A stretch of 64,000 bases of DNA from Aurantiochytrium sp. KH105. Taxonomy: Eukaryota; Sar; Bigyra; Thraustochytrida; Thraustochytriidae. The notes beneath the pieces were generated by a model. That model did no database searches and was not told the origin of the DNA. It saw nothing but the letters and a program-made list of their open reading frames with translations. The translations under genes were made by a program, and so were the position numbers. The stretch is taken from assembly GCA_003116975.1 (NCBI GenBank), contig BGKB01000231.1:21183-85182 (forward strand), written 5' to 3'. Below, one piece after another: positions 5,527 through 60,470 of the stretch (positions are counted from its first letter, which is position 1; the number at the start of each line of letters is the position of its first letter).

Positions 5527-5529
5527 CAA

Positions 5530-5625
<96 letters not shown>
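5527..5625. repeat. (AAAG)n microsatellite, ~100 bp
   Basis: About 24 near-perfect AAAG units on the plus strand, ~0.7 kb upstream of the Rac start. A tract of almost identical motif, length and orientation lies at 28232-28330. Confidence 0.95.
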
Positions 5626-28231: not shown

Positions 28232-28233
28232 GA

Positions 28234-28329
<96 letters not shown>

Positions 28330-28330
28330 A
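28232..28330. repeat. (AAAG)n microsatellite, ~100 bp
   Basis: Same motif, strand and length as the tract at 5527-5625. It lies ~1.1 kb upstream of the AP2-domain gene. Confidence 0.95.
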
Positions 28331-29435
28331 GGAAAGCGAGCGAGCGGGCGGTGGCGGGCGAGGGCAGGGCAGGGCGGGGCAGAAGCGGTGCAGGGCGGAG
28401 GCGGAAGCGCGGGACGGCGAGCGCAGAGGGGAGCGCAAAGCAAGGCGGGAGGCGGAAGGCCGCGGGCTGACGGCGGTATGCGACCGACGGCGGAGAGAGA
28501 GGGGGGCGGCGGACGGCTCGGCTCGGGCCGCCCTCGGAGCTGTTGTGGGGCGAGCTCCGCAGTGGTGTCTGGCTGGTGGAAGGGTTGCGGGCGCTGTGGA
28601 GGCGGTCCCCGCAGCGACGCGGGGGAGATAGGCGAGTTTCTGCCGCGAGGCCCTGCTGAGGAAGAAGGGAGGGGAGAAGGGTTGAGAGGGAAGAGGAGCG
28701 CGCGAGATGGGAAAGAAAGGAGCGTCTGCGAGAAAGAAAAAAAAAGGAAGGAGAGAAAGAAAAAGAAATGAAAAAGAAAGAAAGCGAGAAGCGGAAAAGC
28801 AGAAAGGAGCGCTAACAAACTCCAAAGGCAAGCAACAGCAGCGGCCGGCGCCCGCGAGAGGTCCACGCGGACGCAGCGAAGACGCGAGCGAGCGAGAGAG
28901 CGAGCAAGCGCGCGCAGACCACGGCCGGCCTCGAGACCAGCCTGCCCGCGCGCGGACGCCCTCCCGCGCTCGCTCCCTCCCTCCCTCCGCCAGCCAGCCA
29001 GCCAGGCCCAGACCTGGACGTGCCAGATCGGCAAATAAGGCGCCGAGGCAGCTCGACTTGGCAGCCCCTGGCTGGGCCCTGCCTCACCCAGCCGTGCAGC
29101 GTCTGCGCGCGAGAGGATACGTGGAAGGGCGCGCGCTCTGCGCGCCCGCGCACGGGGCCGGCAGGATCCGGCGCGCAGAGCGGAGAGGCGAAGCCTTGGG
29201 CGCCCGTCTCGCCCCCTTCTCTCCCTCTTTCTCTCTCTCGTCGGCGAATAGTGTGACAAGCAAGCAAGCGAGCAAGCAGGGAACAAGCGCCGGCCACCAG
29301 CACCGCGCCTGACCTCGGCTTCTCTCGGACTTTAGTGAACGCGGCTGGAGCCCGCGGCAGCCTGGCGTGCGTGCGTGCGTAGGAGCGTACGTACGTTCAT
29401 AGGCCACGCGGAAGCAGATCCCTTTTGGGAGGAGT

Positions 29436-40053: not shown

Positions 40054-41188
40054 GCCGCCCAATCGATCGATGCTCGCTGCCTCCGTCGCGCCGATGCCTC
40101 TCGCACGCTGGCGACCGCGACGCGGCGGAACGGTCTGCGCGGAGGGCACGACCACCAGAGCTCGCGCGGGTCTCCCTTGGGCGTGGCGCGATGCCCGCCT
40201 CGCCTGCGAAGGGACGGGCTGCGCGGGGTGTGCCAGATCGACTCTGCCCGTTGGCGCCTTTCTGAAGGAGCGCCCCGCCCGACAGGGAGTCACTGTAGGA
40301 TTCATAGGCCCCTTCGCCAACCGGGCATGATAGACCGCTTCGACGGCCCCACCGTCTCGGCCGCGGTCGCAGGCGCGAGCGGCTCTTACGTCGTCGCCGC
40401 AAGCGCGGTGCACGCAGCAACGAAAAGGCGAGCCATTGGCGGGCTTCCGCATGTTCGAAGTGCGATGAAATTGTACAAAACTGTGAGTATGGGTTTCGTG
40501 ATTTTGGCCGCCGGGCACGGGTGGGAGTACTTTGTAATTCGTACTACAACAAGAAGGAAAAGATGGCCTCCTCGCTTTGCGATGTTCAGAAATCAAACGG
40601 GATTTCAATATATTGCACAGTCTCGCATTCTCTGTCAACCAAATACCTGGGAAAGCGAATGATCTTGGCCGTCTGTGGTGACAAACGGTTAATTTACATC
40701 TCTCGAGGCCTCTTTTTTGGCTCTCTTTGTGCGCAACAGTTCTCACTCAATCATGACTAACTTAGCCACGTCAATGAACCGAGATTGAATCCTCAAAGCA
40801 AGGAAACGAGCTGATTTGTTCTCTTCACCATCCGAGTCCCGTTGATGCAGATGCTCGACCAGCAAGGTTCCACCTGGGCTCGCGAAGCTCCTTGCTGAGC
40901 CAAACTCATGGCGCAAATTTCGGTGTCATCGTTGCCTCGCGCACTTCGCATTGCAACGCATCGCGCAAAGCCCCGTCAGGTCAGGCGAAGCTTGGTCGTA
41001 GCGAGAAGGGCTTCTGTTCTGGCTCGTCGTTGTGTCGTCGCCCGCCTTCTTGTTCTTCAAGAAAGCTGGCAGACCGACCAAGCCAAGCCAAGCCAAGCAG
41101 GCAGACCCAGAACAAGACGGAGAAGGTCGAAGACGACGAGGACAGAGGACGAGGGCGGAGACGAGGAGCGCTGGCGGAGGGCGCAGCC
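40054..41188. promoter_or_regulatory. 1.1-kb divergent spacer
   Basis: Separates the ankyrin gene from the TPR/CCCH gene. The half nearest 40053 is GC-rich and could encode a longer N-terminus for the ankyrin protein. The centre (40430-40900) is AT-richer. An (AGCCA)n pentamer lies at 41078-41098. Confidence 0.5.
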
Positions 41189-44100
41189 ATGGAGGCCACG
41201 CGTGCAGTGCTGGAAGAGGTGCAGGCCTTTCGCGCAGCGGTGGAAGAGACCGAGTATGCGAAGGCCGTGGAGATCATGACTCGACTGATCGCCAGAGACC
41301 CGAAGCGGGCGCCCTTCTTTGCGAGCCGCGCCAAGGCGAACGTGCTCCTGGGGCGCATGGACGAAGCGCTGAAAGATTCCACGCAAGCCCTCCAGCGCGA
41401 CGGAAAGCTCGCCCTCGCTCATCTTTGCAAAGGCTGCGCACTGGTTGGTTTGGGAAGGCATACGGGAAATGCCGCGCAACTAAAGAGCGGCGGGAGGGCA
41501 TTGCAGCAGGCTCGCACGCTCGACAAAACAATCGCTTCGCAAGACCTTTTCAAGCGCTTCGAAGCTGCTCTCAGCGATCAAATGGCTCGTAATTTTGTTG
41601 TCAAAGGTGCGGTGCATCAGAATGACTTTGGACTCAGGATACTGGACGAGAGCGAAGGTCCCGAGGCCGGCGGGACACAACCTGCTAAGTCTAAGCTTTA
41701 TGACGCGCCACCGCTCTCATCTGGCCTCGACGAGGATACCTTGCTCTGGATCATGTGTGATGCTCTTCTCGTTTATGTGGCGCTCGATCCAAGCCGGGTG
41801 GGGGGAAAGAAACCAGGTCTAACCCTTGACACATGTGCCCTCTTGCGCGATCGGCGGTCCTTGGAGGACTGCCGACGCCTTGTTGGCTCGCTCGTGGAGG
41901 CGATTGATGTCGAGGCATTTCAAAGTGGAGCGCGAAATAGTCTGACTGGCCTCAATCGTTGTGTGCGCAGCGCGTTGAGTGCCCGAGTTTTACAAGTGTG
42001 CATGCGGTCATTACTTGCCATCATAAGTCCCGATGCATTGGTAAAAACCTATGAGCAGTATGTGGCAAACGTGCAGCGTGTAATTTTTGCGCTCTTGGGT
42101 GAGGGCGACACAGCGCTCTCTTTGCGCCGCGGCGGGGTTGCCGCGCTCGCGCAGCGTCTCGTGTGCTCCTGTCTTCGGGCTGCGGCCCCAACGCAAATCG
42201 TTGTTTTGTTGCGTCTCCGTATCGAGATCGCAAACCAAACAATTGTGGACGACGCGACTTTGATTGCCGAGATGGATGAGGCGCTTGCACCGTTCTTTAA
42301 CGTCGAAGCCCTGAGCTCCTGCGAAGATCTAAATCTTGGACGGAATTGGACCGCTGCCCCACCGTGGCTGGTGACGGCTGCGCACGGCCACAGCGAACCC
42401 CACGTAGACGCTCTGCTCACTCGCGGCCAAGACACGATGGCCAGGGCGACCGCGTCGGCTGCTTCCAACGGCGAGCACACAACGATAATTGATGGCGGCT
42501 TGGAGGACGACATCGAAGCGGCTTTTGCATATAGCCAAGTCATCGATGTTGAGACGGGATATGGGCCTTGGAATCTCGTGCCATCCTGCTTACCAAGCTC
42601 TTTGACTTTGCAAAGTACGCGCGAGTCAAGTGTCCTCAGCAACAAGACATGCGAGTGCGCTCGTGAACCTGCTCGAAACACGCGTGTCGCGAAGTTAGCC
42701 GAAGCATGGGAAGCGCTGCAGAACAGCGACCAGCGGGAGCGAATCCGGCTCATTTCGTTGCAAGATTTGCAAGCTATTACACAACATTTACGAGGTGAAA
42801 TTCCAGGCAGGCCCATGGATGTTCTTCAAGTCGCGCGAGAAATTTACATTGACGGCGAATCGCCCCGCGCGCCAGCATCGTACAAGTTGTTTGCGCTTGC
42901 GCATGAGGATACCGACCATGGCGCAACAGCCGAGAGCGATACCTTTCATCGTGCCTTGACCGACACGCTCGAAGTGTACTCGCGTTTGGATTATGGAAAA
43001 ATCGCGTCTTCCACAGCTGGTCACTTTGAGAGGTCGCTTCGTCGCGGGGCGAGCGCGAGCAAACTCGATGTGCTCATCAAGTCCGATGCAGGTCGCCGCT
43101 GGCAGCGCCTCGCTGCAGCTTTTGCAGAGACCAAGCTCAAAATGCGTGCCTTGCAGGCCTCGCCAGCCTTTGCCGCTGCAGCGTTGAGCAAGCTTGACGA
43201 AATTGATGTTGCGGAGCCGCCGGTTCAAACTGTCGACGCTTTGGACGAGCGCATCATTCCGAATTGCGCGCTACCACCAAGTTTATGTGTGCTCGCGGAC
43301 ATGGCGCAGGGGTATCCCGTGTTCGGCGCTTCTTCATCTTCGAGCAATGGTCTCCTCGTCGAGGAAACCTACTACGTTCACGCTCGTGGGTGGCGGCAAA
43401 AGGCGAACGCTGCTGGTAAAGAAGCGCCTGGCTCGCTCGTATTTTCTGATGGTTGGGTAGTTACGAAGCGCTGCGCGTCTGCATGTTTTGCTAATGTCGG
43501 TCTTGTTCCCATTTACTTGGGCGAAGCGCCTCTGTGTTGTGAATGTGGTCAAGGCTGCGCAAGCACTTGCGCTTTGGATTTTTCGTGCGGTGGTGGCGGC
43601 GGCAGCAGCGGCAGCGGCAGCAGCAATGGCCGTATGCCAGCGTGGCTGCCTGAACTCAAACTAAAGTCTACGCTCTCCCCGGATGGGAAAAGGCGTTTGT
43701 CCTGCTATGTTGCAAATTTTGCGCCAGACATAACAATCAAACAGCGCCCGGCCAGGCGAAAGAAACGGGGCACAGCTGCAAACGGTAAGGCTTTGACATT
43801 CGTCAGCGAGGCAACCACCAAAAACAAAGCAAAGGAAAATGGCCAGGTTCAGAGCATTCCGTCAACTTCGGAATCTGCCTTGAGCGGGCAAGAGGCACGC
43901 AACGTTGTGGCATGCGCGCAGCCATCGCAAGGTCGTCGAGGCAAGAGACCGCCCGCTCTCCAGTGCAATGCCTGTGGCGGCGACGTCAATAGTAACCGGT
44001 GCAGCGAGGAGATGCAGTCTGAAAAAGGAACCGAAAGAACGAATGACAGCATTCATCCTTTGTTTGAGCGTATTCTGCGACTGTCGCAAATAGGCCCTGC

Positions 44101-47100
44101 TCTTGCTGATGAATTACAGCACGAGGTGCAGTGCTGCAAGGACTTGGCGCAGCAGTACACGGCTCGTCGCGACGATGTCTTCTCCAAGGGCGAGCGTTTG
44201 TTCAATCTTCAAAACATCCTTACCTTCCTCGAGGAGATTGACGCCATGCACAGCAAGACGTCTGACCTGGCAAAACGCCATGTGCAGGGTCGCCGTGGTC
44301 ATTCTCGGTCTCACGATCCTCCGGCGCAGACGTCAACGAAGGATCTCAGCGCGCACTCGCACTTTGCTAGTTGCGTAAACACGCTCTGTGAAACCATGAG
44401 CAAGGTGGAACAAATCCCGAGATCTTTGCTCGAGGTGACTATGGACAGTCCGATGCTGTCGATGCGATTGCAAGCCTCTCTCGAGGCCTGTCCGAAGCCT
44501 TCTGCACCGACAAAGCAGGTGACTGGGGCGAGTGTCATGAAAGACCACACCGACGCTGAGCCGTCTTCCGGATCACCGCTTGCGGGGGGTGCCGGTGTAC
44601 TGAGCGCGGTCATGTCGCTCGCGACCTCGGCGGGCCGAGCTGCTCGTGAAGATGCGCGCGCCGAAGCATCAGCTTTGCACGAGGCATCAGTCAAAGAAGG
44701 CGCGCTGCTTGCGTTTTGTGCCGATTTCTTAGGGCCGCTGAGCCGAGTATCAGAAGAGATTTGCGTAGCTGCCGCCGTGAATCCGTACGAGGGTTTGCTC
44801 GCCACTCCACGCAAGGGCGGAGATGAGAAGATGCCTATGGAGAGGGAAAAAGAGGGCGAGGCGGGTGAAATTGTAGATGCTAGCGTGGCCAAGCAAGGGG
44901 ACCCGGGGACCACGGAAAGATGGGACGACTGGCGGCAAGAAATTACGTCCAAGCTTCGTGAGACTCTGGAAATGCATGAGGTGCAAACAATTGCATGGAA
45001 GCAGGAACAGTTTTTCGCGGGAAGGCCAGGTTTGGAACTTGGTCAACAGGAAGCTCGACGTATTGCAAAGACTGCTGGGGTGTTCTACCCGACACCTCGA
45101 ATGGCACTTGATTTGGGCCTTTCTGAGCGCGATGCGATTCTTGACCTTGTGCTTGCAGCGGCTCAAGTGTTGGTGGCTGTCCGGCAAGTGCAGGTTGCAG
45201 GCAAGGAGGCTGAAGCAAACGCCTCTCTTTCCGACGCACGCATGGATGACGAGGAGGTCACAACCAAGGTCCAGGTTATATTCAAGGATCAGCTTGTCCT
45301 TGTGAATAATACTGTGCATCTCGACGCTGCCTTGAGCCAGCAGGTGCAGCAAAATTTCACCTGTGAAGACGACCTCTGCCACGTTCGTGAACTCATCATC
45401 TCAGCGCAGCATCGTCTGCGGGCTTTGAAACGGGATTATGAGGCCTCTCTGGAAAATTTGGGCGCAGTTGAGCGTGCCCTGCGACGAAATGTCACGATGC
45501 GATTTCAATTCTTCACTGCTGCTATCGCGCAAGTCCTTGTCAATCGCGTTGACGATATTGCTCATCAGAGCGCCGTGAATGCCAAGCATCGTGCTACATT
45601 GCTGAACCAGGTGGAACCGGCAAGTCTTGCACTCGGGGCCGGAGGCGGAGGAGGGACGAAGACACGCAAATCCAAGTCGAAACGGAAAACGCGTGGCGGC
45701 AAAAGTGTGAGCGAACAGGAAGGTGCGCCGCAGGAGATCCAATCTTATTCTCCCAATGATACTTCGGGCATGACTGAGAGCGGAATTGGTCATAGCAAAG
45801 ACAAAGACAAAGAAGAAGAGGAAGAAGAAGCTGGGACTTCTTTTGTGTTGCAAGACATGAAGACTCTGGATCAAGATGTACATCACGACGATCCTCTGCC
45901 TTCCACACAGACTTCTTTGGAGAAGGATGAGCTGTCAGTAGACGATAGCCCAGAGAGCTGGACAACTGTGTCCGTACGGAGAAAAGGGAATCGGCGTATC
46001 AAGACGCAGCATACCGATGCGTCTGCGGATGGGGAAGCCAGTGATACTGAGGGTAGACAATTTCAAACTCAGGCAAAAGAGAAAATGGAATCTCGCCGAG
46101 GGAGTGAAAAGTCAACCAAGGGAGTGTCTGACCGAGCGACTGCTCAAGTCATTGGAGATGTTAAAAAGGAGAGTGTGTTGTTGCATTCTCCCCGCGCTGC
46201 TGCATTACCTGAGGAGGGTCGCTTGAAAGACGATGCATCCAAGCAGAAGTCGTCTGATGTAGCGCAGAGTCCCGAATCAGAGCTTGCATCAAAATTGAGT
46301 CAAAAGACCTCGCTGGCTGACCGAGAAAATGGAGATGCTCAAGCGAACGGTTCCACTTCACAGCTTTCGTGCTCAACGGAAGAAGGCACGAGAGGCGACG
46401 CAGTCACGCTAGCCCCGCCGGACTCCAACAGTTCCGAGGCTGGAGCGGTGTCGCCAGCAACTGCAGAGACATCAACGAAGCACGACAAGAAGATTCACAA
46501 TAGGAAGAAGAAGAAGAACAACAAGAAGAAGTCGAGCAAGTCGAAGAAACCGGAAACGGTGTCGCAAAACGGAGTGGACAAGGCTGCTGTGAATGTTTCG
46601 CAAAACGGAGTGGATAAGGCTGCTGTGGATGCTTCGCAAAACGGAGTGGATAAGGCTGCTGTGGATGCTTCGCAAAACAGAGTGGATAAGCCTACGGCGG
46701 CTGCGCTTGATGCGGAGGTGGCTCGGGGAAGCTCCACGCCGCCTGCTTCCAGCACTGAAGAAGAATCCGAGCATGCACTTGCGCCTGTGCAAAAAAGTGG
46801 TGTTCCAGCTTTGTCCAATTCGGAAATAGGTCACGAGCCCACCGGGACGTCAGAGGCGGCCGCAGGTGCAAAAGGAAACGGTCCACCAGTTGTCGACATT
46901 TGCCGACTCTTTTTGCAGGGCAATTGTCCCGAGGGAGATGCGTGCCTGCGGCGTCATGTAACACCCGTGCAGCTCCATGACGAAATGCTCGCTTGGGCCC
47001 AGGGGCAAACGATGGCCTCCGAGCGTCTTTCTGGGGCGCCAGCAGTGAGCCAGGGCGAGAGCAAGGCTTCTGGACCAGCAGATTCTGATCCGGGGGTTGG

Positions 47101-47551
47101 TCAATCTCCTCCAATTCAAAATTTCGTGACTCCAGAACAGTCGCAGCCAGGGCCTCAGTTTGTGCAGGTCGGCCAACACGCGGGGCCTCCAGGCAACGTT
47201 TGGCCTCCGTACATGCAAACATACATGCAAAATGGGATGATGCCATTTGCTCCTTCCTTTCATCCTCCGCCACCGCAGCCGATGATGCATGTGCCAATGG
47301 GCCCAATGCCTGGGCCTTTGGGCCATGAAATGTACTATCCGACACCCTACATGATGCCAGGATATCCGAACCCTCCTCCGCCTTTTATGCCGATGCCGCC
47401 TCAGCATCCATATTACGTCCACGCAATGCCACCTCATGCAACGATGATGCCAATGCAGGAACCAGATCAACATGTTGAGCAGCAGGACAAAGTGCAACGA
47501 GACGAAAATGAACCGACGTCTCCACAAGAGCGTTCCGAGGCAGAAGAGTAG
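41189..47551 (+). CDS. giant TPR-domain protein with C-terminal CCCH zinc finger
   Basis: 2,120 aa, intronless. The N-terminus (about 14-110) is a TPR unit (YAKAVEIMTRLIARDPKRAPFFASRAKANVLLGRMDEALKDSTQALQ in sequence). A long helical region follows. Cys-rich clusters at ~760-800 (CCECGQGCASTC) and ~925-937 (CNACGGDVNSNRC) may bind metal. Further helical parts run to ~1460. A charged low-complexity region follows, with Lys-rich KKKKNNKKKSSKSKK and four 12-residue SQNGVDKAAVDA repeats (~1790-1834). At 1904-1922 is one CCCH finger (C-x7-C-x5-C-x3-H), an RNA-binding type, followed by a Pro/Met-rich tail. The TPR plus long helical layout recalls TTC3/DZIP3 proteins, but no RING finger is seen. I infer an RNA-associated scaffold. 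The start ATG at 41189 directly precedes the TPR. Confidence 0.82.
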   Translation: MEATRAVLEEVQAFRAAVEETEYAKAVEIMTRLIARDPKRAPFFASRAKANVLLGRMDEALKDSTQALQRDGKLALAHLCKGCALVGLGRHTGNAAQLKSGGRALQQARTLDKTIASQDLFKRFEAALSDQMARNFVVKGAVHQNDFGLRILDESEGPEAGGTQPAKSKLYDAPPLSSGLDEDTLLWIMCDALLVYVALDPSRVGGKKPGLTLDTCALLRDRRSLEDCRRLVGSLVEAIDVEAFQSGARNSLTGLNRCVRSALSARVLQVCMRSLLAIISPDALVKTYEQYVANVQRVIFALLGEGDTALSLRRGGVAALAQRLVCSCLRAAAPTQIVVLLRLRIEIANQTIVDDATLIAEMDEALAPFFNVEALSSCEDLNLGRNWTAAPPWLVTAAHGHSEPHVDALLTRGQDTMARATASAASNGEHTTIIDGGLEDDIEAAFAYSQVIDVETGYGPWNLVPSCLPSSLTLQSTRESSVLSNKTCECAREPARNTRVAKLAEAWEALQNSDQRERIRLISLQDLQAITQHLRGEIPGRPMDVLQVAREIYIDGESPRAPASYKLFALAHEDTDHGATAESDTFHRALTDTLEVYSRLDYGKIASSTAGHFERSLRRGASASKLDVLIKSDAGRRWQRLAAAFAETKLKMRALQASPAFAAAALSKLDEIDVAEPPVQTVDALDERIIPNCALPPSLCVLADMAQGYPVFGASSSSSNGLLVEETYYVHARGWRQKANAAGKEAPGSLVFSDGWVVTKRCASACFANVGLVPIYLGEAPLCCECGQGCASTCALDFSCGGGGGSSGSGSSNGRMPAWLPELKLKSTLSPDGKRRLSCYVANFAPDITIKQRPARRKKRGTAANGKALTFVSEATTKNKAKENGQVQSIPSTSESALSGQEARNVVACAQPSQGRRGKRPPALQCNACGGDVNSNRCSEEMQSEKGTERTNDSIHPLFERILRLSQIGPALADELQHEVQCCKDLAQQYTARRDDVFSKGERLFNLQNILTFLEEIDAMHSKTSDLAKRHVQGRRGHSRSHDPPAQTSTKDLSAHSHFASCVNTLCETMSKVEQIPRSLLEVTMDSPMLSMRLQASLEACPKPSAPTKQVTGASVMKDHTDAEPSSGSPLAGGAGVLSAVMSLATSAGRAAREDARAEASALHEASVKEGALLAFCADFLGPLSRVSEEICVAAAVNPYEGLLATPRKGGDEKMPMEREKEGEAGEIVDASVAKQGDPGTTERWDDWRQEITSKLRETLEMHEVQTIAWKQEQFFAGRPGLELGQQEARRIAKTAGVFYPTPRMALDLGLSERDAILDLVLAAAQVLVAVRQVQVAGKEAEANASLSDARMDDEEVTTKVQVIFKDQLVLVNNTVHLDAALSQQVQQNFTCEDDLCHVRELIISAQHRLRALKRDYEASLENLGAVERALRRNVTMRFQFFTAAIAQVLVNRVDDIAHQSAVNAKHRATLLNQVEPASLALGAGGGGGTKTRKSKSKRKTRGGKSVSEQEGAPQEIQSYSPNDTSGMTESGIGHSKDKDKEEEEEEAGTSFVLQDMKTLDQDVHHDDPLPSTQTSLEKDELSVDDSPESWTTVSVRRKGNRRIKTQHTDASADGEASDTEGRQFQTQAKEKMESRRGSEKSTKGVSDRATAQVIGDVKKESVLLHSPRAAALPEEGRLKDDASKQKSSDVAQSPESELASKLSQKTSLADRENGDAQANGSTSQLSCSTEEGTRGDAVTLAPPDSNSSEAGAVSPATAETSTKHDKKIHNRKKKKNNKKKSSKSKKPETVSQNGVDKAAVNVSQNGVDKAAVDASQNGVDKAAVDASQNRVDKPTAAALDAEVARGSSTPPASSTEEESEHALAPVQKSGVPALSNSEIGHEPTGTSEAAAGAKGNGPPVVDICRLFLQGNCPEGDACLRRHVTPVQLHDEMLAWAQGQTMASERLSGAPAVSQGESKASGPADSDPGVGQSPPIQNFVTPEQSQPGPQFVQVGQHAGPPGNVWPPYMQTYMQNGMMPFAPSFHPPPPQPMMHVPMGPMPGPLGHEMYYPTPYMMPGYPNPPPPFMPMPPQHPYYVHAMPPHATMMPMQEPDQHVEQQDKVQRDENEPTSPQERSEAEE
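46558..46690 (+). repeat. 36-bp coding minisatellite
   Basis: Four near-identical 36-nt units encoding SQNGVDKAAV(D/N)(A/V) inside the TPR/CCCH gene. The in-frame length keeps the protein open. The last unit is degenerate (SQNRVDKPTAAA). Confidence 0.9.
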
Positions 47552-47935
47552 GGAGATTTTTGCTAGCTAAAGGAATTTGAGCTCGCTTTTCCTTTCACTT
47601 TGAATGATCGCTGCGGTCAGAGCATAGGCCTTTTGCTTGCTGCTCGCGAGCCCATTAAAATCAACTATTGCAATAGAAGTCAGGCGCACAGTACTGGTTT
47701 GCTACGGTCATTTGCATCACCTTAAAGGAGCCAATACCATTTTTGTTCCAAGCCCCAGCCCAAGTCCAATTCACGCCATGCCATGCTGCCATCTATTCAT
47801 CCTGATGGGGTCGCTGCAAAAATTGCCCCTTTTTTCTTTCCAAGCGGCTGCAGAAACCTAACGACCGCGATAAGAGACAACTCTCGCGCGGATAGCGGGG
47901 CAGGCGAGGTACGCCTGGCCGCGCAATTACGCGAG
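47552..47935. promoter_or_regulatory. intergenic region before the SAS-4-like gene
   Basis: 384 bp between consecutive plus-strand genes. An earlier in-frame ATG at 47783 would add 51 residues of unconvincing sequence. The shared 12-mer AACCTAACGACC is at 47855-47866. Confidence 0.5.
47855..47866 (+). promoter_or_regulatory. MSA-like element (AACCTAACGACC)
   Basis: Twelve bases identical to 50766-50777 upstream of CAF-1 p60. It differs at one position from the plant M-phase activator consensus YCYAACGGYY bound by three-repeat Myb factors. It lies 70 bp upstream of the chosen ATG. Function is inferred. Confidence 0.3.
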
Positions 47936-50548
47936 ATGGGGGACGTGGACGAGGGCGCGGCGGACGTGACAGTGTTCAACGACGCGCCTGCGTCAACAGG
48001 GCGCGACGCGCTTCTGGACCTGCTGGAAATGGCCGGCAGCGACGATGACGGCAGCCAACATGACGACTACAACAACAACGACGAAGAAGACCCCTGGGAC
48101 CGCGACGCGCGCGGCGGGCACAGAGGTTATGGCGGGCAGGCCAAAGACAACGCGCACAACGACGAGGAGGAACTTGATACAACTCTTGTTGGTGAAAGTG
48201 TGATGGTCGTTGTCGGCCATGAAGGAGACCATGGAAAACCTCGCTCTCCGCCACCACCACCGCCGCCACCACCACCGCACATGTTCATGAATGCGGGGGA
48301 GGAAGAGAGTTATGGAGACAATGACGCTGCGAGCTTTCATAGCAGTCATGGAAAATCTGGTATGGTGGAGAAAAGGACCTCTCAAGAGATGAAATCAGGC
48401 TATGAGAATCGTCCAAGTGATTCCTTTGCATCATCGCCACCACCGCCTCCTCCGCTTCCGACAACGCAGACACGCCAATCTACCACTGAGACAATGTCAT
48501 CTACGTCTGGAGGTCCAAAGCCATTTTCAACGATGAGCAAAACACCTGGCAAACGTCCCTTTTTGAAGAAGGGAAGCCGCAGCTGGAATTGGGCAGCCTC
48601 CGCCAAGCAACGCAAGGCGAAGGAGGCCGAGAAGAAGCAGGAGCACAGCGAAAAAAAGGTTGGTTGGCAGCGACCTAGCAGCCCTGTTCGCAAGCAGAGA
48701 GATTTCGACACCGCCTCTATCGATGTCTACACGACATCTTCAAAAGTACGCGCCAGCTTCGCATCGCCGACGACCTATATGGATGATGCGGAGGAGGTCT
48801 CTGGGGCTTCACCAGCAAAGGGTTTTATGGAAAACCTACTTCACGGAACTAGTCGGGAAGAACTTTGGGGTTTCGGGCATCAGGCGTTGGACGAGGCATA
48901 TAGCTACGACGATAATGACGACCACCACTACCAAAACGGGGAAAATCGAGGCTCCCATGAAAATGGGTCAAATCGAGGTTCCTCTGAAAACGGGTCAAAA
49001 CAAGGCTCCTTTTCTCATTTTGCCAGAGAAGAAGAGTTTGGAGCTAATAACAACGACAACGACGACGAAGAAGAAGACGCAGAGGAATACGCAGAGATGT
49101 CGTGGAAGAGGCCAGTGCGCGAGCACGCGCCTCAATCGCAACTCGTGCGTCGCATGTTCCGTACGCTAGACCCCGAAGACGACGTGGAGAGCGAGGAGGA
49201 AGAAGAGGCAAGTGCCGCAAACAAATCTGTAGTGCCGACCTCTGCCTCAGCAAACGCAGAATTCACGGCCAAACTGCAAGAAGAAATGGATCGCTTCAAA
49301 GAAACCAACGAACGCCTCCAGGTATCGCTGAAACAGCTCGAGGTCGATCGTCGTCATCTCGTCCAAGAACGACTCGAACTTGACAAGGAAAAGCGTCAGC
49401 TCGGCAAAGAGAGCGATGCTCAAGTCGAGCAAATGAGAGCAGAGGTGCGCAAGGAACGAGCATTGTTGCAGCGCGAGCGCGTGGCGCTGGAACGGCAAAA
49501 GCAACATATCGAGGTCTTGCGAGAAACAGCGCGTGTCGAGCGCAAGGACCGAGGTCAGGTCGATTCCCTCCAGGCCACCATTGCTCGCATGCGTCTCGCT
49601 GAGAAAGAAAAAGCGGTCAAACACAAGGAGGCGATGCAAAGCAAACGCGAGCGCATTTCCGTCCTCGAACGTGAAGCAGAGCAAATGCAGAGCGCTCTTC
49701 GCTTTGCGGAGGAGCGACGTCTTGACTTATGGGGACAGCTTACACAGGCACAAGAGAAGATTGAATCAGGAGAGGCAGAAAGGAAGCAGCTGGCACAGGC
49801 GCTCGAGTCCATTCGCGCCTCCTCGGCCGTATCGCCCACCCCGCAATCGTTTGTTTCCCCGCTGCGCGAGCCCACTTCAGATGGCCGACGCTCTCGAGAC
49901 GAGAATTACATTGACCACAACAATGGCCTCGAGGATGAAAAAACTGGGGAGCCATTGTATGCGCAGCAAGCTCGGCTCGTGGAAGCCGAGCCCTCGCCAC
50001 ATGGACCCTCGCCAGAGGCAGAGTGTGATCCTTCAGAAAGAGTTGTTCATATTCCAGGCCAAACTGCAGGCCCGAAAGTTGCAGTTGGTGCTCTTACGCA
50101 CGTGGAACACAGCGCAAAGCCGAGTCGGAAGACAACGTCGCAGCGCAGACAGCGCGTCCACCCCGACGGCTCGCGAACCATCAAATTTGCTGATGGGACG
50201 GTCAAGGAAATCTCTCCGGATGGAGAACAGACGGTCACTTTCAGTAACGGGGACATCAAGAAGAAGATCCCGCGCGAGGGACTGGAAATATACTACTTTG
50301 CAGCCTCGGACACCTCGCAAACTACATATGCTGATGGTATGGTGGTGTGCGAATTTCCAAACGGACAGGTGGAGCGCAAGCATCCATCGGGTATGCAGGA
50401 GATCTTTTACGTTGATGGCGCTGTCAAAACGGTGAATGCAGACGGGTCTGAGGAGACGTTGTTTTCTGATGGGACCAAGCTTGAGATTTCAAGTTCAGGC
50501 CAGCGTCGCGTGCTGCGGCCAGTCGAGGCAGGTCCGTCTGGGGAGTAG
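47936..50548 (+). CDS. SAS-4/CPAP (CENPJ)-like centriole protein with TCP10 domain
   Basis: 870 aa from the ATG at 47936, preferred over 47783 because the acidic N-terminus begins there. The N-terminal half is disordered and acidic with two polyproline runs. The middle (~438-632) is a long coiled coil (EEMDRFKETNERLQVSLKQL onward). The C-terminus (~740-855) is the TCP10/G-box beta-sheet made of repeating short strands: DGSRTIKFADGTVKEISPDG, QTVTFSNGDIKK, YADGMVVCEFPNGQVERKHP, EETLFSDGTKLEI. This domain defines SAS-4/CPAP/CENPJ, where it binds STIL/Ana2 and controls centriole and basal-body assembly. With IFT88 in the same window it fits a centriole-bearing, flagellated organism. Assignment to SAS-4 rather than another TCP10 protein is likely but not proven. 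Confidence 0.82.
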   Translation: MGDVDEGAADVTVFNDAPASTGRDALLDLLEMAGSDDDGSQHDDYNNNDEEDPWDRDARGGHRGYGGQAKDNAHNDEEELDTTLVGESVMVVVGHEGDHGKPRSPPPPPPPPPPHMFMNAGEEESYGDNDAASFHSSHGKSGMVEKRTSQEMKSGYENRPSDSFASSPPPPPPLPTTQTRQSTTETMSSTSGGPKPFSTMSKTPGKRPFLKKGSRSWNWAASAKQRKAKEAEKKQEHSEKKVGWQRPSSPVRKQRDFDTASIDVYTTSSKVRASFASPTTYMDDAEEVSGASPAKGFMENLLHGTSREELWGFGHQALDEAYSYDDNDDHHYQNGENRGSHENGSNRGSSENGSKQGSFSHFAREEEFGANNNDNDDEEEDAEEYAEMSWKRPVREHAPQSQLVRRMFRTLDPEDDVESEEEEEASAANKSVVPTSASANAEFTAKLQEEMDRFKETNERLQVSLKQLEVDRRHLVQERLELDKEKRQLGKESDAQVEQMRAEVRKERALLQRERVALERQKQHIEVLRETARVERKDRGQVDSLQATIARMRLAEKEKAVKHKEAMQSKRERISVLEREAEQMQSALRFAEERRLDLWGQLTQAQEKIESGEAERKQLAQALESIRASSAVSPTPQSFVSPLREPTSDGRRSRDENYIDHNNGLEDEKTGEPLYAQQARLVEAEPSPHGPSPEAECDPSERVVHIPGQTAGPKVAVGALTHVEHSAKPSRKTTSQRRQRVHPDGSRTIKFADGTVKEISPDGEQTVTFSNGDIKKKIPREGLEIYYFAASDTSQTTYADGMVVCEFPNGQVERKHPSGMQEIFYVDGAVKTVNADGSEETLFSDGTKLEISSSGQRRVLRPVEAGPSGE

Positions 50549-53415: not shown

Positions 53416-54594
53416 TCATTCGGACGCGATTGGCACAGGCTGAAGCACGAGTGGCGACGGCGAGTCCTGAAACGACCCGTTCTCATCTCGTGCGCTGGAC
53501 GGCGTGTGAGCAGGCGCCCGGATGACGACTGGCACGCTCGACGCGGCATCGGCAAGCCGATTCTCGTCTCCTTCTACTTGTTGCTGCTGTTTAGGGGGCT
53601 GCCAGAGGCGGATTGTGCCCATCTCATCGTCTTTTGCGTTCTGAGCTTTTTCAGATCCAGCCTCGTTCTCCGAATAAGAGACGGTCGTGGACGTGAGCTC
53701 TGCAGAGACCACGATGGGGAGCTTGGGGTGGGAGTCGATTGCGACAACGGGCCCGCTGTGACCCTCGAGGCGCAAGGTCACTCGCTTGGTTTGCAGGTCC
53801 CAGAGATAGCAGACGCCATCTTCGGACCCACTCATGATGGCTGCTGCTCCTTGATGAACCGCAAACCCGGCCTGAAGACAAAAACGCTCGTGCAGGTGGC
53901 CACGGTACCTTTTAAGTACCTTTGTTTGCGCATAGTTCCAGAGCTGCAAGGTACCGCCAAAGGTGCCAACGAGAACGAATTTTCCATTCGGCGAAAAGGT
54001 GGCACTACTGACGGGCGGGTTATGGTTTTGCAGGATGGATCGGTGACATTGACCGCTGTTGGTGTCCCAAATGCGGACAAGACCGTCAAAGCCACCGGAG
54101 ACGAGCAGCGAGCCGTCACGATTAAAGTTTACCGCGGTGACCGGGTCCGTGTGGCCACGAATTGTACGAATGCAGCGACCCGTTTGAGCATTCCAAATGC
54201 GTATCGTGCAGTCAAAGGAGCCTGTTGCAATGAGGTCGCCCGTCGGGCTGTAGTCCACGGCGAAGACGATGTTGTGGTGGCCCACCAAGGTGCGCACGAT
54301 GCGGCCGGTGGCTGCCTCCCAGAGCCTCACAGTCCTGTCGTCGCTTGCGGAGCAGAGCAGCACGCCGTTGGGCGACCACGCGACGGTGGATACGCCGCCC
54401 TGGTGACCCTCGAGCGTGCGCACGTACGCGCCGGAGACGCCGTCCCAGAGAATGACCAGGCCGTCGACCGAGGCCGTTGCAAGCAGGTCTCCGTCCGGAG
54501 AGAACTTGACGCACGACACGCTGCCGCGGTGGCCGCGCAGCACGTGGCTCAGGCCCAGCTGCAGCCGCGGCATGCGCTTGACGTCCTTGCCCAT
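53416..54594 (-). CDS. WDR5-like WD40 protein, divergent paralogue
   Basis: 392 aa from the ATG at 54594 (MGKDVKRMPRLQLG); other in-frame ATGs lie ~120 bp further upstream. WD40 repeats begin at LRGHRGSVSCVKFSPDGDLL. They continue through TLEGHQGGVSTVAWSPNG, TLVGHHNIVFAVDYSPTGDL, RGHTDPVTAVNFNRDGSLLV, PVSSATFSPNGKFVLVGTFG and an IMSGSEDGVCYLWDLQTKRV unit. Repeat order and spacing match WDR5/SWD3, the H3K4 methyltransferase (COMPASS) subunit. It is paralogous to the gene at 55085-56375. The last blade is interrupted (EAGSEKAQNAKDDEMGTIRLW) and a Gln/Ser/Pro-rich tail of ~60 residues follows, so it may have diverged in function. No intron is present. Confidence 0.8.
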   Translation of the reverse strand: MGKDVKRMPRLQLGLSHVLRGHRGSVSCVKFSPDGDLLATASVDGLVILWDGVSGAYVRTLEGHQGGVSTVAWSPNGVLLCSASDDRTVRLWEAATGRIVRTLVGHHNIVFAVDYSPTGDLIATGSFDCTIRIWNAQTGRCIRTIRGHTDPVTAVNFNRDGSLLVSGGFDGLVRIWDTNSGQCHRSILQNHNPPVSSATFSPNGKFVLVGTFGGTLQLWNYAQTKVLKRYRGHLHERFCLQAGFAVHQGAAAIMSGSEDGVCYLWDLQTKRVTLRLEGHSGPVVAIDSHPKLPIVVSAELTSTTVSYSENEAGSEKAQNAKDDEMGTIRLWQPPKQQQQVEGDENRLADAASSVPVVIRAPAHTPSSARDENGSFQDSPSPLVLQPVPIASE

Positions 54595-55084
54595 CTTCGC
54601 TCGAGCGCGGTCACACGAGCGGCGCTGCGCTCCGCTTGCAAAGGCAAGAGGTTTTGCTTTCTGAGCAGGCCCTTCCTCCCTCTCTCTGTCATCTTTGTGA
54701 CAGTGACAAGACATGACCATCATGGTCGACGTGAAGCCCAGAAGACACCGCACACTCACTCAGGCTCAGGCTGGGGAATGACAATGAGGACTCGGAACGA
54801 ACGAACGAATGAATGTCTTTAACGAGGCTACCTGTATGCCGAAAAAGAAGGACAGATAAGCAAGTCGCAAGGCCTGTGAAAAAGAGAAAAGACGCGAGAC
54901 CGTGCGTGCCATGGATGGAGGGATGGATTCCTGGCCCTCGACTCGCTTGCTTGCTTGAAGACAGACAAGCAAATAAAGTGGGCAGAGGGAAAAGAACAAG
55001 AGAGGGAGAGAGAGGCGCGGTTTATACGTTTTCGTTTGTGTTTAGTAGTTTGGAGATTTCGTGGCTCCCAGAGCTCGGCGGCTG
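54595..55084. other. spacer between the two WD40 genes
   Basis: 490 bp containing the promoter of the downstream WD40 gene and the 3' region of the upstream one. Short GAACGAAC and TTGC repeats only. Confidence 0.55.
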
Positions 55085-56375
55085 TCAGTACTTTTTGGTT
55101 TTATCAGTCTCGACGTCGGCACCTTTGAGGTTCTCGTTCGCGTCGCGCGGAGGAGAAACGCGACCTCGTTTCTTTCCGCCTTTGTCTGTGTCTTTGTTGC
55201 TTGCGTCTGATGCTTCGGCGGGAGCACAAACGCTCACTTCTGCTTCCTCGGGGTCATCCTGGCCGGGCTGGTGGCGCCACACGCGTACCACGGGATGGGT
55301 GGCACGGCCTTCCGGAACTTCGCCTGAAGCCAAGAGATCCTGGTTGGGATGCGCATCGACCGCAAGGACGACGCCAACGTGGCCAAGAAGCTTTTGCGCA
55401 ACCTTTTTCGTTTGCACGTCCCAAATATAAACGTGATGATCCTCCGATCCAGAAGCAATCCAATGGCCGGAGGTGACAGCAAAGGTGGAGAGCATACAAT
55501 AGCGCTCACTCACGTGGCCTTCGTAGGTTTTGGCGACTTTGCCCTCTGCAAAGTTCCATAGACGCAAGGTCGAATCTAGAGTACCAGCAAGAATAAACTT
55601 GCCATTCGGAGAAAAGGTTGCAAAGGACACAGCCGGATTGGTGTCGCCAATAATAGTCTTGCAGCACTGCCCGCTGCCTGCATCCCATATGCGAATGAGA
55701 CCATCGTATGAGCTGGAGACGATCATGGTACCCTCGCGGTTGAAGCTTGTTGCGGTTACCGGGTCAGAGTGAGCGGGAATCGTGCGCACAGCCTTGCCCT
55801 GGCGAACGTCCCATAATCGTACGGTGGAATCGAAGGAGCCTGCGTTGGCGCGTACGCGAGTTGAGTTGCTGTTAGCATTTTCCGTAGACAAACGTGCGTG
55901 CGTGCAAAAGCCCCCTCGCTTCGACAGCTCAACACTTACCTGTGACAAGCACATTTGCTTGCGGACTAAAATCCACACTAAATACATAATCACGGTGGCC
56001 CTCCATGGTGCGCAGGCACTTTCCAGTATGCACGTCGCTGAGTCGCGCAGTGGTATCGTCGGACGCAGTGCATATGAAGCGCGAGTCGGCAGACCAGCAG
56101 ACCCCCGAAATGCCAGCCTTGTGTCCGCGCACGCGGCGTCTAAATCTGCCGGGGTTTTCGTCATCAGAGACATCCCAGATGATGACGCTTTTATCTGCGC
56201 TCGCGCTCGCGAGAAGTTTCCCGTCGGGCGAGAATTTGACGCCCGAAATGCCGGCGTCGTGGCCCTCGAGCTTGAGCCATGGCAGGAAATTAGGCTCTTG
56301 GCTGGCCGTCTGCCGCTTGTCTCGAGGCTCCACGCTAGGCATTGGTCGCCCGGACAGGGACGAGAGCGCCGACAT
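55085..56375 (-). CDS. WDR5/SWD3-like WD40 protein, two exons
   Basis: Joined from exon 1 (56375-55940) and exon 2 (55839-55085), 396 aa. The 100-bp intron has a GTAAGT donor and GCAG acceptor and interrupts a Gly codon, and joining restores VLVTGSFDSTVRLWD. Seven WD40 units run from LKLEGHDAGISGVKFSPDGK to VVRVWRHQ. Typical WDR5 strings include FSPNGKFILAGTLDSTLRLWNFAEGKVAKTYEGH (a span of ~33 residues in the sixth blade) and IASGSEDHHVYIWDVQTKKV. WDR5 reads and presents H3 tails in MLL/COMPASS complexes. Here a C-terminal ~60-residue charged tail with KKRGRVSPP is added. It is the more canonical of the two neighbours. Confidence 0.87.
55840..55939 (-). other. spliceosomal intron of the WDR5-like gene
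   Basis: 100 bp, phase 1, donor GTAAGT and acceptor GCAG. Removing it rebuilds a conserved WD40 strand across the junction. Confidence 0.9.
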
Positions 56376-56829
56376 GGCGTCGGGATACGCTACGAATCTC
56401 GCCCAGCGCTCGCTTGCGCCAACCTAGCGCGCGAGCGAGATCAAGCAAAGTCTATGGAGGACGATGCCCCCCACGTCTCGACTCCCGACGACGATTTTGG
56501 TCGACACGAGGTGAGCGAGAAGGGCGAAGACAGTTGCACGGAGCGTAGAGGGTCGACGCGTCGGCGGCCGAAGCCTGACGTGCACTTGACGGCCCCGCCT
56601 CGCTCGCCCCGTGCGCCACGTCGAGGACGCGGACGACACCGTTTTTGCTCGCTCGTCCGCGACCTAAAAAAGTTTTTCCCCCATCATGTCCACTCTGAGT
56701 CTACTGGCATTATGATGACATGCAAAGGGCAAAGGGCCTTGGTGTAGGCTCGATCGCTGCTGAGCGAAGCGGCCTCGAGCTCTTCGCCCTGGAGGAGACT
56801 GAGGGTGAGACGCTACAGAACTAGGACGC
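56376..56829. other. spacer upstream of the WDR5-like gene
   Basis: 454 bp. A 97-codon plus-strand frame (56454-56747) is Arg/Pro/Asp-biased and unrecognised; I do not call it a gene. Confidence 0.45.
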
Positions 56830-57328
56830 TGAGAGCGAGTGTCCTTGAGAACCGCATTTCAGGGTTTTCTTGAAGGAGTGAAATGACCTCTTCAAGATCG
56901 TTGTCAAGTATTTGACGCTCTTGCAGCATCTCGAGCACGTGAAAAAGATCAACACGTGCATCATCGTCGTCGTTTGCCTCGTCATCGTCGTCTCCTTTGC
57001 GTTCCTGAAAGCTGGCGTAGCTGCAGATCGAGTTGACAGAGTTGAAGACATGTTTGAAGATGCTGCTCGGCTTCGGTCAGGCCTTGACGAATGGCTTCGG
57101 CCTGGAAAAGGAGACGACCCTTTGTGACGAGGCCTCGGCGAGTATGGCTTTCTTCGGAAGTTCGAGAAGGGCGCGCAGCTCCGCTTCGAGTTGAGTCGCA
57201 TCAATATTCACATTGTGCACGTGCTTTTCGAGGCGAGTGGCCAAGCGCTCAAGCACGGCATCCTCCAGCAGGGATGCGCCGTCCCGCGCCAGCGGCAGCA
57301 CGAGCGCCGCGCTGAAGATGGCGTCGAT
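56830..57328 (-). pseudogene. truncated, inverted copy of the 5' end of the kinase-armadillo gene
   Basis: Read on the minus strand, this aligns with 57586-58140 of the plus strand. Shared stretches include LARDGASLLEDAV, TQLEAELR, the nucleotide run encoding TEAEQHLQTC, and the acidic DDEANDD linker. Homology starts exactly at the start codon, which here is ATC instead of ATG (57326-57328). Several indels break the frame, and it stops within the linker before the kinase domain. It lies head-to-head with the intact copy. Confidence 0.85.
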
Positions 57329-57585: not shown

Positions 57586-60470
57586 ATGGACGCCATCTCC
57601 GGCGTGGCGCTTGTGCTGCAGCTGGCGCGGGACGGCGCATCTCTGCTGGAGGATGCCGTAGCCTGCAAGCGAAAGGCAACGCATCTCAAGACCGTGGTTG
57701 AGCGCTTGGCCTCTCACCTCGAGCAGCTGCACGATGCGGCCATTGACGTGACTCAGCTCGAAGCGGAGCTGCGCGTCCTTCTCGACCTTCTGAAGCCATA
57801 TTTTGGCGATAATGCGCGCCAAGGCCTCGCCGCAAGAGCTCGTCTCCTTCTCCAAGCCAGAGCCATTCGTCAAGCGCTGACCGAAGCCGAGCAGCATCTT
57901 CAAACATGTCTTCAACTCTGTCAACTCGATCTGCAGCTGCGCCAGCAGCGTTCGGGGATACAAGAAGACCACGAAGAAGAGGCAAACGACGACGAGGCAA
58001 ACGACGACGAAGATGCACGTAACGACTTGTTTCGGGTGCTTGAATTGCTGCAAGATCGTGGACTACTTGACAACGACCCTGAAGAGGTCATTTCGCTTCT
58101 TCAAGAAAACCCCAACATCGACATAAACGCGGTTCTCGAGGGCCAGCTCGGTACCCGCCGTCAGCGTGGAGCTATGGAACGTCTTACACGTAGTCTCATT
58201 CAAGCAGAAGAGCTTGAGGCCGCTTCGCTCAGCAGCGATCGAGTCTTTATCAAGGCCCCATTGCAGATTCTCGGTGAAGGTCAATTCGGCCAGTTGTCCT
58301 TGGCGTTTACCGGCGTGATGATGGTTCCGAAGTCGAGACGGCAATCAAACGCGTCAAGCCAAATGGTCGTCGCATGCAATTGCATGAGCATCAAGCCCTC
58401 ATGCGTGAAGCCGCGAGCTGGAATGGACTCGAGCATGCCAACATTGTCTGTCTTCTTGGAACCTGCATCATTGAGAACCGTTTTCATCTCGTCATGGACA
58501 AGTGCGACATGTCGCTCGACGACCTCTTGTACGAGAGCGAGACTGACGCGGCGACATTAGCTCTGTCTCTCGACGAAAAGGAAGCCGTTCTGCGCGGTAT
58601 CGCTCGTGGCCTCGAGTACCTTCACGGTAACTTGATTGTCCATCGACACCTCAAGCCAGCCAATATTCTGCTCAGCCGAGATCTTGGTCTCGTCAAGCCA
58701 GCAGATTTTGGCCTCGCCACACAGGTCGAGGCTAACAGCAGCATCGCCGACACTATCTCATCTGTTGGCACACCAGCCTACATGGCACCCGAAGTTCTGC
58801 AAGCGCCTATCCGATGGACGACGCGCGCGGACATCTATGCCTTCGGCATTGTCATGTGGGAAGTCTACCATGGCAAATCGCCGTTTGAGCACAGCGTACG
58901 CTCGATCTCAGATCTAGAGACTCGAGTGTTGAGTGGAGAGCGACCCATGATTTCTGATGAGGTTGATGTTCGTCTGTGGGTTGTGCGTCTGATGGAAAAG
59001 TGCTGGGAGCATAATCCGCAAGACCGTCCACGTGCTTCCGAGATTCTCAGAACTTTCGAAGGTCGCACGAATGTTCGTCGGTCAACGAGACTCATCCGTG
59101 GCCTGGTGTCAGTATTTTCTCGAAGTCGCGGCGGTAGCAATGGTATCGAAGATGCCAGCATTGAGCTTGTGCAAGGTCTTGTCCGCGACTTGTCCGAGGA
59201 TACGGGAAATCTTATGCGCACGTTGGACACACTTCGGATTAGTCTCGAGCAGGAGCGCGATGCTGATGCTGGAGATGCATTGCGTGCAGAGGCTCGTTCT
59301 CGAGGTATCATTGTGAGCATGAAAAGGATCTTAGAACACAACACGGATCCCGGAATTCTTGCCAGAGCTTTGTGGGTACTCCGCTTCGCTCTGACTGGAT
59401 CTTCAGGTACCTCGTTTCGTGCTGCGGCCATTCAAGAGCATGATTTTGGCAGTATTGCAATCGAACTATTTCAAGCGTTTCGCGACCATGAAGACCTTCA
59501 AGCAGCAGCTTGTGGGTTTTTTATACCTGTTACACATGACAGTGACCGCAATAGGGAAATCCTCGGGCAAGAGCTCAAGGTCGGCAAAGAGATCGTCGCG
59601 GCCATGCGCGCTCATCCCAGAAGTGAAGTCGTGCAGGAGAAAGCATGCGGAGCTCTTGGGAATCTCGCATTTGGCAATGATCGCAACAGGGTGATCCTCG
59701 GGCAAGAGCTCAAGGTCGGCAAAGAGATCGTCGCGGCCATGCGCGCACATCTCGCAAACGAACGCGTACAGATTAGCGCGTGCGCCGCGCTTTGGACTCT
59801 CGCAGCCAACGATCGCAACAAGGTGATCCTCGGGCAAGAGCTCAAGGTCGGCAAAGAGATCGTCGCGGCCATGCGCGCTCATCCCAGAAGCGAAGCCGTG
59901 CAGGAGAATGCATGCGGAGCTCTTGGGAATCTCGCATTTGGCAATGATCGCAACAAGGTGATCCTCGGGCAAGAGCTCAAGGTCGGCAAAGAGATCGTCG
60001 CGGCCACGCGCGCTCATCCCAGAAGTGAAGTCGTGCAGGAGAAAGCATGCGGAGCTCTTGGGAATCTCGCATTTGGCAATGATCGCAACAGGGTGATCCT
60101 CGGGCAAGAGCTCAAGGTCGGCAAAGAGATCGTCGCGGCCATGCGCGCACATCTCGCAAACGAAAGCGTACAGATTAAAGCGTGCGCCACGCTTTGGAAT
60201 CTCTCGGTCAACGATCGCAACTGTGTGATCCTCGGGCAAGAGCTAAAGGTCGGCAAAGAGATCGTCGCGGCCATGCGCGCTCATCCCAGAAGTGAAGCCG
60301 TGCAGGAGAAAGCATGCGGAGCTCTTCGGAATCTTGCTTTCAACTCGTCCGTCAAAGCTATCCTCCGAAGACAGGGCGCTGTGGAGGCAGTGCAGCGCAC
60401 TTGTGAGCGCTTTCCAACACTTTCAGCCGCGAAAGACGCAAAAGCAAAACTCCGTAATGGCTTTTTCTGA
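57586..60470 (+). CDS. helical-bundle / HRD-deficient kinase / armadillo protein (frameshifted)
   Basis: One gene interrupted by an apparent 1-nt deletion near 58293. Frame one (57586-58560) and frame two (to 60470) together cover ~961 aa. N-terminus (~1-125): four amphipathic helices (GVALVLQLARDGASLLEDAV), resembling HeLo/RPW8/MLKL-type bundles. An acidic linker follows. The kinase domain has P-loop GEGQFG, Lys in TAIKRV, a catalytic loop reading HRH (VHRHLKPANILL; His at 58647-58649) in place of HRD, an intact DFG and GTPAYMAPEVL. It resembles TKL-type kinases. The C-terminus (~660-950) holds armadillo repeats of 44-45 aa, six nearly identical at DNA level. HRH predicts weak or no catalysis. 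The frameshift may be a sequencing error, a real lesion or recoding. Function is inferred only. Confidence 0.75.
59560..60350 (+). repeat. six-copy 132/135-bp tandem array (armadillo repeats)
   Basis: Units begin ILGQELKVGKEIVAAMRAH and come in two types. A has HPRSE...ACGALGNLAFGND (135 nt) and B has HLANE...ACAALW.LA.ND (132 nt), in the order A-B-A-A-B-A. Units are near identical in DNA, indicating recent duplication or gene conversion. Confidence 0.9.

Follow-up and report, generated by a model that had tools for sequence, protein, structure and literature searches.

What does a protein do in which an N-terminal stretch is followed by an acidic linker, then by a protein kinase domain and finally by armadillo (ARM) repeats, and is such an arrangement a real gene at all? 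It is found at 57586-60470 of the window, i.e., of the whole stretch of 64,000 nucleotides analysed here (G000:C231:21183-85182 of a 76.0-Mb assembly with 367 contigs). An earlier note had described the locus as an MLKL- or HeLo-like gene in which an N-terminal helical bundle is joined to an HRD-deficient kinase and to an ARM sensor, and had suggested a role in regulated cell death or defence.

The locus and its partner haplotype copy

The second open reading frame (ORF) of the locus revealed matches to the Pfam families Pkinase (E 4.9e-43, 147.9 bits), Arm (E 1.8e-19) and ARM_LRRK2 (E 8e-23), while the N-terminal ORF showed no significant Pfam match. The order of the proposed four-part gene was borne out, but a single ORF was not, as a frameshift near 58.29 kb places the window copy in two different frames: the N-terminal ORF starts with an ATG at 57586 and stops at 58560, and the kinase-ARM ORF ends at 60470. 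Comparison with contig C164 located this frameshift in the glycine loop. C164 carries the same locus in one open frame with 1140 residues from the ATG, next to the same degenerate inverted neighbour; given this uninterrupted frame, an intron behind the frame change was set aside.

All parts of the gene are encoded on the forward strand. The N-terminal helical module, a candidate bundle (residues 1-125, 57586-57960), can be aligned across 19 family sequences and is all-helical in an AF2 model (pLDDT 70.1, pTM 0.37). It is followed by the acidic linker (57961-58020), recognised from the sequence with 12 D/E among the 21 residues at positions 126-146, and by a conserved region leading to the kinase (58021-58248), which takes the position of the MLKL brace, keeps E142, R145, L148, L152, L155 and L204 invariant in 19 sequences and contains helices in a low-confidence model. 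The kinase domain, split by the frameshift, extends over 58249-59070 as judged by the Pkinase match, C164 and the family alignment. A homogenised ARM array with a unit of about 135 bp and a variable helix-3 face (59543-60334; 7 repeat hits) and a C-terminal cap with the stop codon (60335-60470), a tail common to C164, complete the gene.

In their longest aligned pieces, the window and C164 are 93.5% and 90.6% identical. They differ by the frameshift, by HRH for HRD and KPADFG for KLADFG in the window, and by their ARM repeat hits (7 in the window versus 11). Their dN/dS of 0.24 in the N-terminal part and likewise 0.24 in the kinase means that the break is either recent or an assembly error. 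We consider it unlikely that the frameshift, perhaps together with HRH and the short array, is an artefact of the assembly; the two ratios, showing no sign of long decay, would agree with such an error, but the 150 codons downstream of the kinase, where 25 nonsynonymous and 9 synonymous changes were counted, and an identity of 90.6-93.5% speak for a distinct haplotype, even if they do not prove the frameshift itself. In our best reading, the window gene belongs to a multi-locus family, as one haplotype copy that was broken recently.

At 56816-57328, the reverse strand holds a second, degenerate family copy, made up of the N-terminal module and the region after it in broken frames. It stands head to head with the gene at 57586-60470 at a distance of about 260 bp, so that neither family copy is intact in the window. 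C71/C25 shows a similar arrangement, and such head-to-head copies recall divergently paired NLR genes.

Other features of the window were recorded as well. Two WD40 genes at 53419-54759 (-) and 55085-56375 (-), the latter spread over two frames, look like a duplication; the scanned ORF of each matched the WDR5 beta-propeller over the cut-off. An ankyrin-repeat ORF of 985 aa is located at 37792-40746 (-), and a 682-aa ORF at 35302-37347 (+) encodes another protein kinase domain, distantly similar to that of the family. The 921-aa ORF at 47783-50545 (+) matches Tcp10_C, a domain of centriole proteins. A frame of 2219 codons is open at 40892-47548 (+), showing no Pfam match at E<=1e-5; at 46562-46690, it contains 3.6 copies of a 36-bp unit. 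At 5529-5625 and 28232-28336, two long tracts of tetranucleotides are present (AAAG x24 and GAAA x26).

A small gene family

The combination of helical module, kinase and ARM repeats is real and belongs to a small gene family. A search of the assembly with the N-terminal module listed 31 places; among divergent queries, L046 added the C15/C6 pair and L044 yielded nothing further at E<=0.001. Most members come in pairs of similar copies, each on its own contig, which is the pattern of a diploid assembly. Pairing was based on a wider alignment for C231/C164 and on similarity for the other pairs, for C9/C220 also on matching gene order. At 11 loci, at least one haplotype copy has a frame that leads without interruption from the N-terminal module to the ARM repeats, namely at C164, C71/C25, C290 (with C61), C85/C83, C258/C34 and C15/C6, at three loci on C9/C220 and at two on C16/C41. 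C61/C290 is without a kinase, its N-terminal module running straight into the ARM repeats. Three more copies are broken: the inverted neighbour in the window, the one at C71/C25, which is broken in both haplotype copies and has intact kinase motifs, and one beside the C16/C41 pseudokinase gene.

Related repeats were also detected in ARM-only frames in six places (L059-L064 on C29, C184, C48, C4, C85 and C40). With introns disregarded, the frame of the first repeat starts shortly upstream, leaving short N-termini, and there was no N-terminal or kinase match among the matches listed. These frames are a possible reservoir of repeats. No relatives were confirmed in viral contigs (26 pattern matches) or in bacterial and archaeal contigs (344 pattern matches). 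In the open-licence PMC literature, searched partly by the titles and abstract openings listed, we found no description of this architecture and no paper on armadillo in thraustochytrids.

The ARM array and its variable face

By TRF, the window array can be read as a 135-bp unit present 5.9 times (84% matches) or as a 402-bp block present 1.9 times (95%). Repeats with 44-45 residues were collected by HMM in 164 rows from 18 sequences, leaving out C15, C6, C61, C220a and the broken inverted copies. The mean pairwise identity of repeats was 0.48-0.74 in the 12 arrays listed, with single pairs reaching 0.93-1.00 in five. In assembled haplotype copies, repeat counts differ for C164/window (11/7), C16/C41 (12/5) and C9b/C220b (17/10), are 4/5 for C16p/C41p, and agree for C71/C25 (11), C85/C83 (11), C258/C34 (8) and C9c/C220c (5), bearing in mind that near-identical arrays are prone to misassembly; C61 (an undetermined letter) and the broken C220a were left out of this comparison.

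Among 75 nearly complete repeats of one haplotype set, the columns with the highest entropy were 31, 21, 27, 17, 37, 20 and 28. Columns 17, 20, 21, 24, 27, 28 and 31 form one face of helix 3, and the columns between them hold 0-0.70 bits. Column 24 is lower with 2.00 bits, below columns 11, 13, 14, 32 and 34. Column 37, lying outside helix 3, varies as much as some columns of the face, which counts against reading the array as a recognition surface. The register fits an alignment to the engineered protein OR497, which we take to be an ARM design. For designed ARM proteins, the main peptide-binding signals were placed in helix 3, according to the available part of a study on them (PMC10684580). 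The variable face lends support to the earlier idea that the ARM array might act as a sensor.

We calculated all dN/dS values with our own Nei-Gojobori script; repeat pairs are not independent, and gene conversion can bias such a test. Close pairs (dS<0.4) numbered 160 and came from six gene copies at four loci, C25 and C85 being given as well but contributing none; they revealed a dN/dS of 1.57 for the face (bootstrap 1.31-1.97; 1.35-2.49 in each copy) versus 0.35 for the rest. Within helix 3, pN was 0.393 on the face versus 0.020 off it in 149 close pairs, with pS values of 0.285 and 0.241, and this contrast at like pS is firmer than a dN/dS above 1. As the columns had first been seen in the same data, a cross-validation was carried out. 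Columns chosen from C290, C9b and C16 gave 2.30 versus 0.28 for the rest in C164, C220b and the window (63 pairs), a set that is not fully independent, since C220b is the haplotype partner of C9b. Columns chosen from C164, C25 and C85 gave 1.26 versus 0.30 in C290, C9b and C16 (167 pairs). With all within-gene pairs, the two face values were 1.70 (bootstrap 1.10-2.67) and 1.07 (0.83-1.46), the second interval spanning 1. Over all 351 within-gene pairs, shifting the face pattern by -2 to +3 columns lowered the ratio from 1.04 to 0.09-0.54, and none of 20000 random sets of seven columns reached the dN of the face.

Some of the rates point the other way. Over all 351 within-gene pairs of six genes, the face dN/dS was 1.04, which counts against a recognition surface, since lack of constraint alone could give that value. 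Positions of H1/H2 taken as exposed also showed 1.31 in 149 close pairs (pN 0.101, pS 0.078) and even 2.33 over all C16 pairs; the value of 1.31 is due to low synonymous change at these positions, so that the face is not alone in exceeding 1. Over all pairs, the exposed H1/H2 positions stood at 0.62 versus 1.04 for the face. Between static haplotype copies, at four loci where both copies have the same number of repeats, the face dN/dS was 0.18 (7 nonsynonymous and 9 synonymous changes in 35 repeat pairs). We read this as a face that diversifies during array turnover, each version being conserved afterwards; the rival is an unconstrained face drifting neutrally.

The kinase domain

Kinase motifs were compared in 22 rows, with haplotype copies counted separately and some rows being partial. 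The AIK-type lysine is kept in 20 of them. In the catalytic loop, HRD (15 rows) is accompanied by HHD, CGD and HGA (two each) and by a single HRH, that of the window (58641-58649), while the DFG position shows DFG in 14 rows, as in the window (58704-58712, intact), and NYG, NFG, NFE and GFG in two each. As the C164 copy displays both HRD and DFG, HRH describes the window copy and not the family. The earlier claim of an HRD-deficient kinase thus holds for the window, but not for the type, and was ruled out as a family trait.

Lysine, HRD and DFG are all kept in at least one copy at six of the 11 uninterrupted loci. At four others, the DFG aspartate is missing in both haplotype copies, and the fifth, C61/C290, is without a kinase; all five retain the helical module. 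We give no count of the origins of this degeneration because the kinase tree is weakly supported at its deep nodes. The dN/dS of the kinase was 0.05-0.58 in eight haplotype pairs. A phmmer search of the PDB with the C164 kinase found 311 sequences at E<=1e-20; the best 13 of the 60 listed from these hits were RIPK1 constructs (top score 115 bits), followed by EGFR and FAK. The earlier note had named clear orthology to an ordinary signalling kinase as speaking against its proposal; no such orthology was seen in this PDB search, where RIPK1 is the nearest kinase of known structure.

The N-terminal module

In 19 sequences, the N-terminus and the region leading up to the kinase together have twenty invariant columns, and the N-terminal dN/dS between haplotype copies ranged from 0 to 1.05 (eight pairs, few changes). 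AF2 models, built from the window sequences only with shallow alignments, were of low confidence (pLDDT 55.9 with pTM 0.25, and pLDDT 70.1 with pTM 0.37). Both agree with the all-helical N-terminus of the earlier note, but the four-helix bundle was not confirmed: the latter model has two long helices, H3-50 and H55-124, and its pTM is too low to settle the topology, so that it neither establishes nor excludes the simple coiled coil named there as the contrary outcome. Foldseek found no match at E<=0.001 for the two models, and no MLKL, RPW8/NRG1 or HET-S was among the best 50 of 79 PDB rows for one model or the nine of nine for the other; as models of low confidence give unreliable matches, this is no evidence against the fold.

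We consider it quite unlikely that the N-terminus is a true MLKL/HeLo/RPW8 four-helix bundle, which would permeabilise membranes once the kinase and the ARM array release it. In a direct HMMER alignment, residues 7-145 of MLKL align to positions 10-144 of the family profile with little gapping, and only 3-7 of 3000 shuffled MLKL sequences scored as high with profiles of 124 and 150 residues, but 14-75 of 3000 did so with a 190-residue profile; moreover, such controls flatter real helical proteins, as shuffling breaks helix periodicity. Pfam MLKL_N matched one of 19 members below the cut-off (10-11 bits, E 0.33-0.59) over profile positions 4-139 of 142, but unrelated families scored higher, and searches with the family consensus and with three divergent members gave no match. 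Profile searches of the PDB with the family N-terminus listed no MLKL at E<=10, phmmer searches of the PDB were insignificant as well, a PDB match to NRG1 (At5g66900) with E 0.87 ranked below unrelated proteins, and genome searches for MLKL_N, RPW8 and HeLo were without a match. In hhalign, MLKL was aligned over 41 columns with a probability of 0.7%, which was a little better than any of 60 shuffles. The kinases offer some parallels, in that HGA/GFG in C16p/C41p recalls HGK/GFE of human MLKL, as given in the available part of PMC6013482, and wheat Pm13 combines MLKL_NTD, brace and a kinase described as retaining every key catalytic residue in the part of PMC10951266 at hand. With sequence searches insignificant, alignment statistics weak and low-confidence AF2 models lacking a Foldseek match, the proposed MLKL/HeLo kinship of the N-terminus was not supported.

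It is also doubtful that the module is a coiled-coil domain for oligomerisation that would cluster the kinase, the output then being phosphorylation rather than membrane damage. The two long helices of the model and the AIK-type lysine, HRD and DFG kept at six of the 11 loci are in line with such a role, but a pTM of 0.37 cannot decide the topology, and the module is retained in one protein without a kinase and in four without the DFG aspartate.

A possible function of the family

Taken together, we assume with a probability of about 0.45 that the window family works like intracellular recognition receptors. In this mechanism, the ARM array would serve as a variable sensor, its concave helix-3 face binding a variable ligand. 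Binding may then lift a restraint on the RIPK/TKL-like kinase, which looks non-catalytic or is lost in several paralogues, and the helical module with the following region would provide the output by oligomerising or by acting on membranes, presumably leading to a defence or death response. Judged by sequence, a recognition role of the ARM array, coupled to a kinase-type switch, has the best support as a function; a death-inducing output is possible, though weakly supported. Besides the close-pair rates on the helix-3 face and the differing repeat counts, recognition is favoured by the ARM-only frames, by the helical module outlasting the kinase and by RIPK1 as the best PDB match of the kinase. 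STAND-type ATPase matches in the genome count against it (17 for NACHT, 15 of them over the cut-off, and two for NB-ARC). The most far-reaching version, namely a polymorphic family of immune or allorecognition receptors that evolved in a protist without NACHT or NB-ARC and would unite a hypervariable ARM sensor, a RIPK-like switch (a pseudokinase in several) and an MLKL-like death-inducing bundle in one polypeptide, appears highly unlikely to us. The MLKL-type executor discussed above specifies the output step, which recognition by itself leaves unspecified.

A less favoured, still tentatively arguable explanation is an ordinary signalling kinase with an ARM scaffold, whose repeats are homogenised by unequal crossing-over and whose helix-3 face varies for want of a specific binding partner. 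The neutral face value over all pairs (1.04), the exposed H1/H2 positions likewise exceeding 1 in close pairs (1.31), the face conserved between static haplotype copies (0.18), the kinase ratios of 0.05-0.58 in eight haplotype pairs and the ARM_LRRK2 match would all suit a scaffold. It is opposed by the close-pair face value of 1.57 with its bootstrap range of 1.31-1.97, by the difference over all pairs between the face (1.04) and exposed H1/H2 (0.62), and by five of 11 loci at which the kinase is missing or has no DFG aspartate. If the recognition reading is true, armadillo would join LRR, WD, ANK and TPR as a rapidly diversifying recognition scaffold, with a kinase replacing the NLR ATPase. 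Members that keep the N-terminal module next to a decayed or lost kinase form a natural series on whether catalysis matters to the output, and, if the N-terminus turned out as a HeLo-type bundle, one protein would unite a RIPK-like kinase with an executor resembling MLKL.

Comparison with known systems

RIPK1 resembles the family in its kinase domain, being the best PDB match of that of C164 (115 bits). RIPK1 itself contains a RHIM and a death domain and has neither the N-terminal module nor an ARM array; among the Pfam matches of four family members, RHIM and death domain were not found. With MLKL and plant MLKL_NTD-kinases such as Pm13, as far as the latter are presented in the available part of PMC10951266, the family shares the order of N-terminal helical region, intervening region and kinase or pseudokinase. 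It differs from them by lacking a significant sequence match, by the added ARM array and by keeping all three kinase motifs at six of 11 uninterrupted loci.

Its ARM repeats match Pfam ARM_LRRK2, and the LRRs of brown-algal ROCO proteins are under positive selection on their concave side, with repeat-only genes suggested as a reservoir in the part of PMC11378527 available; unlike LRRK2 and ROCO proteins, the four family members scanned showed no ROC-COR or LRR among their Pfam matches.

Fungal NLRs with repeats of high internal conservation (HiC) offer a further comparison. Their ANK and TPR repeats carry like signatures of homogenisation and of change on the binding side, as described in the accessible part of PMC4986451, where HiC repeats are defined as >85% identical over >=100 aa. 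On that account, both groups have homogenised, superstructure-forming repeats, differences in repeat number, amino-acid change concentrated on the binding side (for the ARM repeats, the presumed one) and an N-terminal module followed by a switch and then by repeats; the repeat-number polymorphism was found here in assembled haplotype copies at three pairs. The family differs in that its repeats are ARM and not WD, ANK or TPR, its switch is a kinase and not NACHT or NB-ARC (Pfam scans of four full-length members gave neither at E<=0.001), and its N-terminal module is without a significant Pfam effector match. With repeat identities of 0.48-0.74 and a 402-bp window block at 95%, the 85% rule is not clearly satisfied; we therefore say that the family works like these receptors, rather than that it is one of them.
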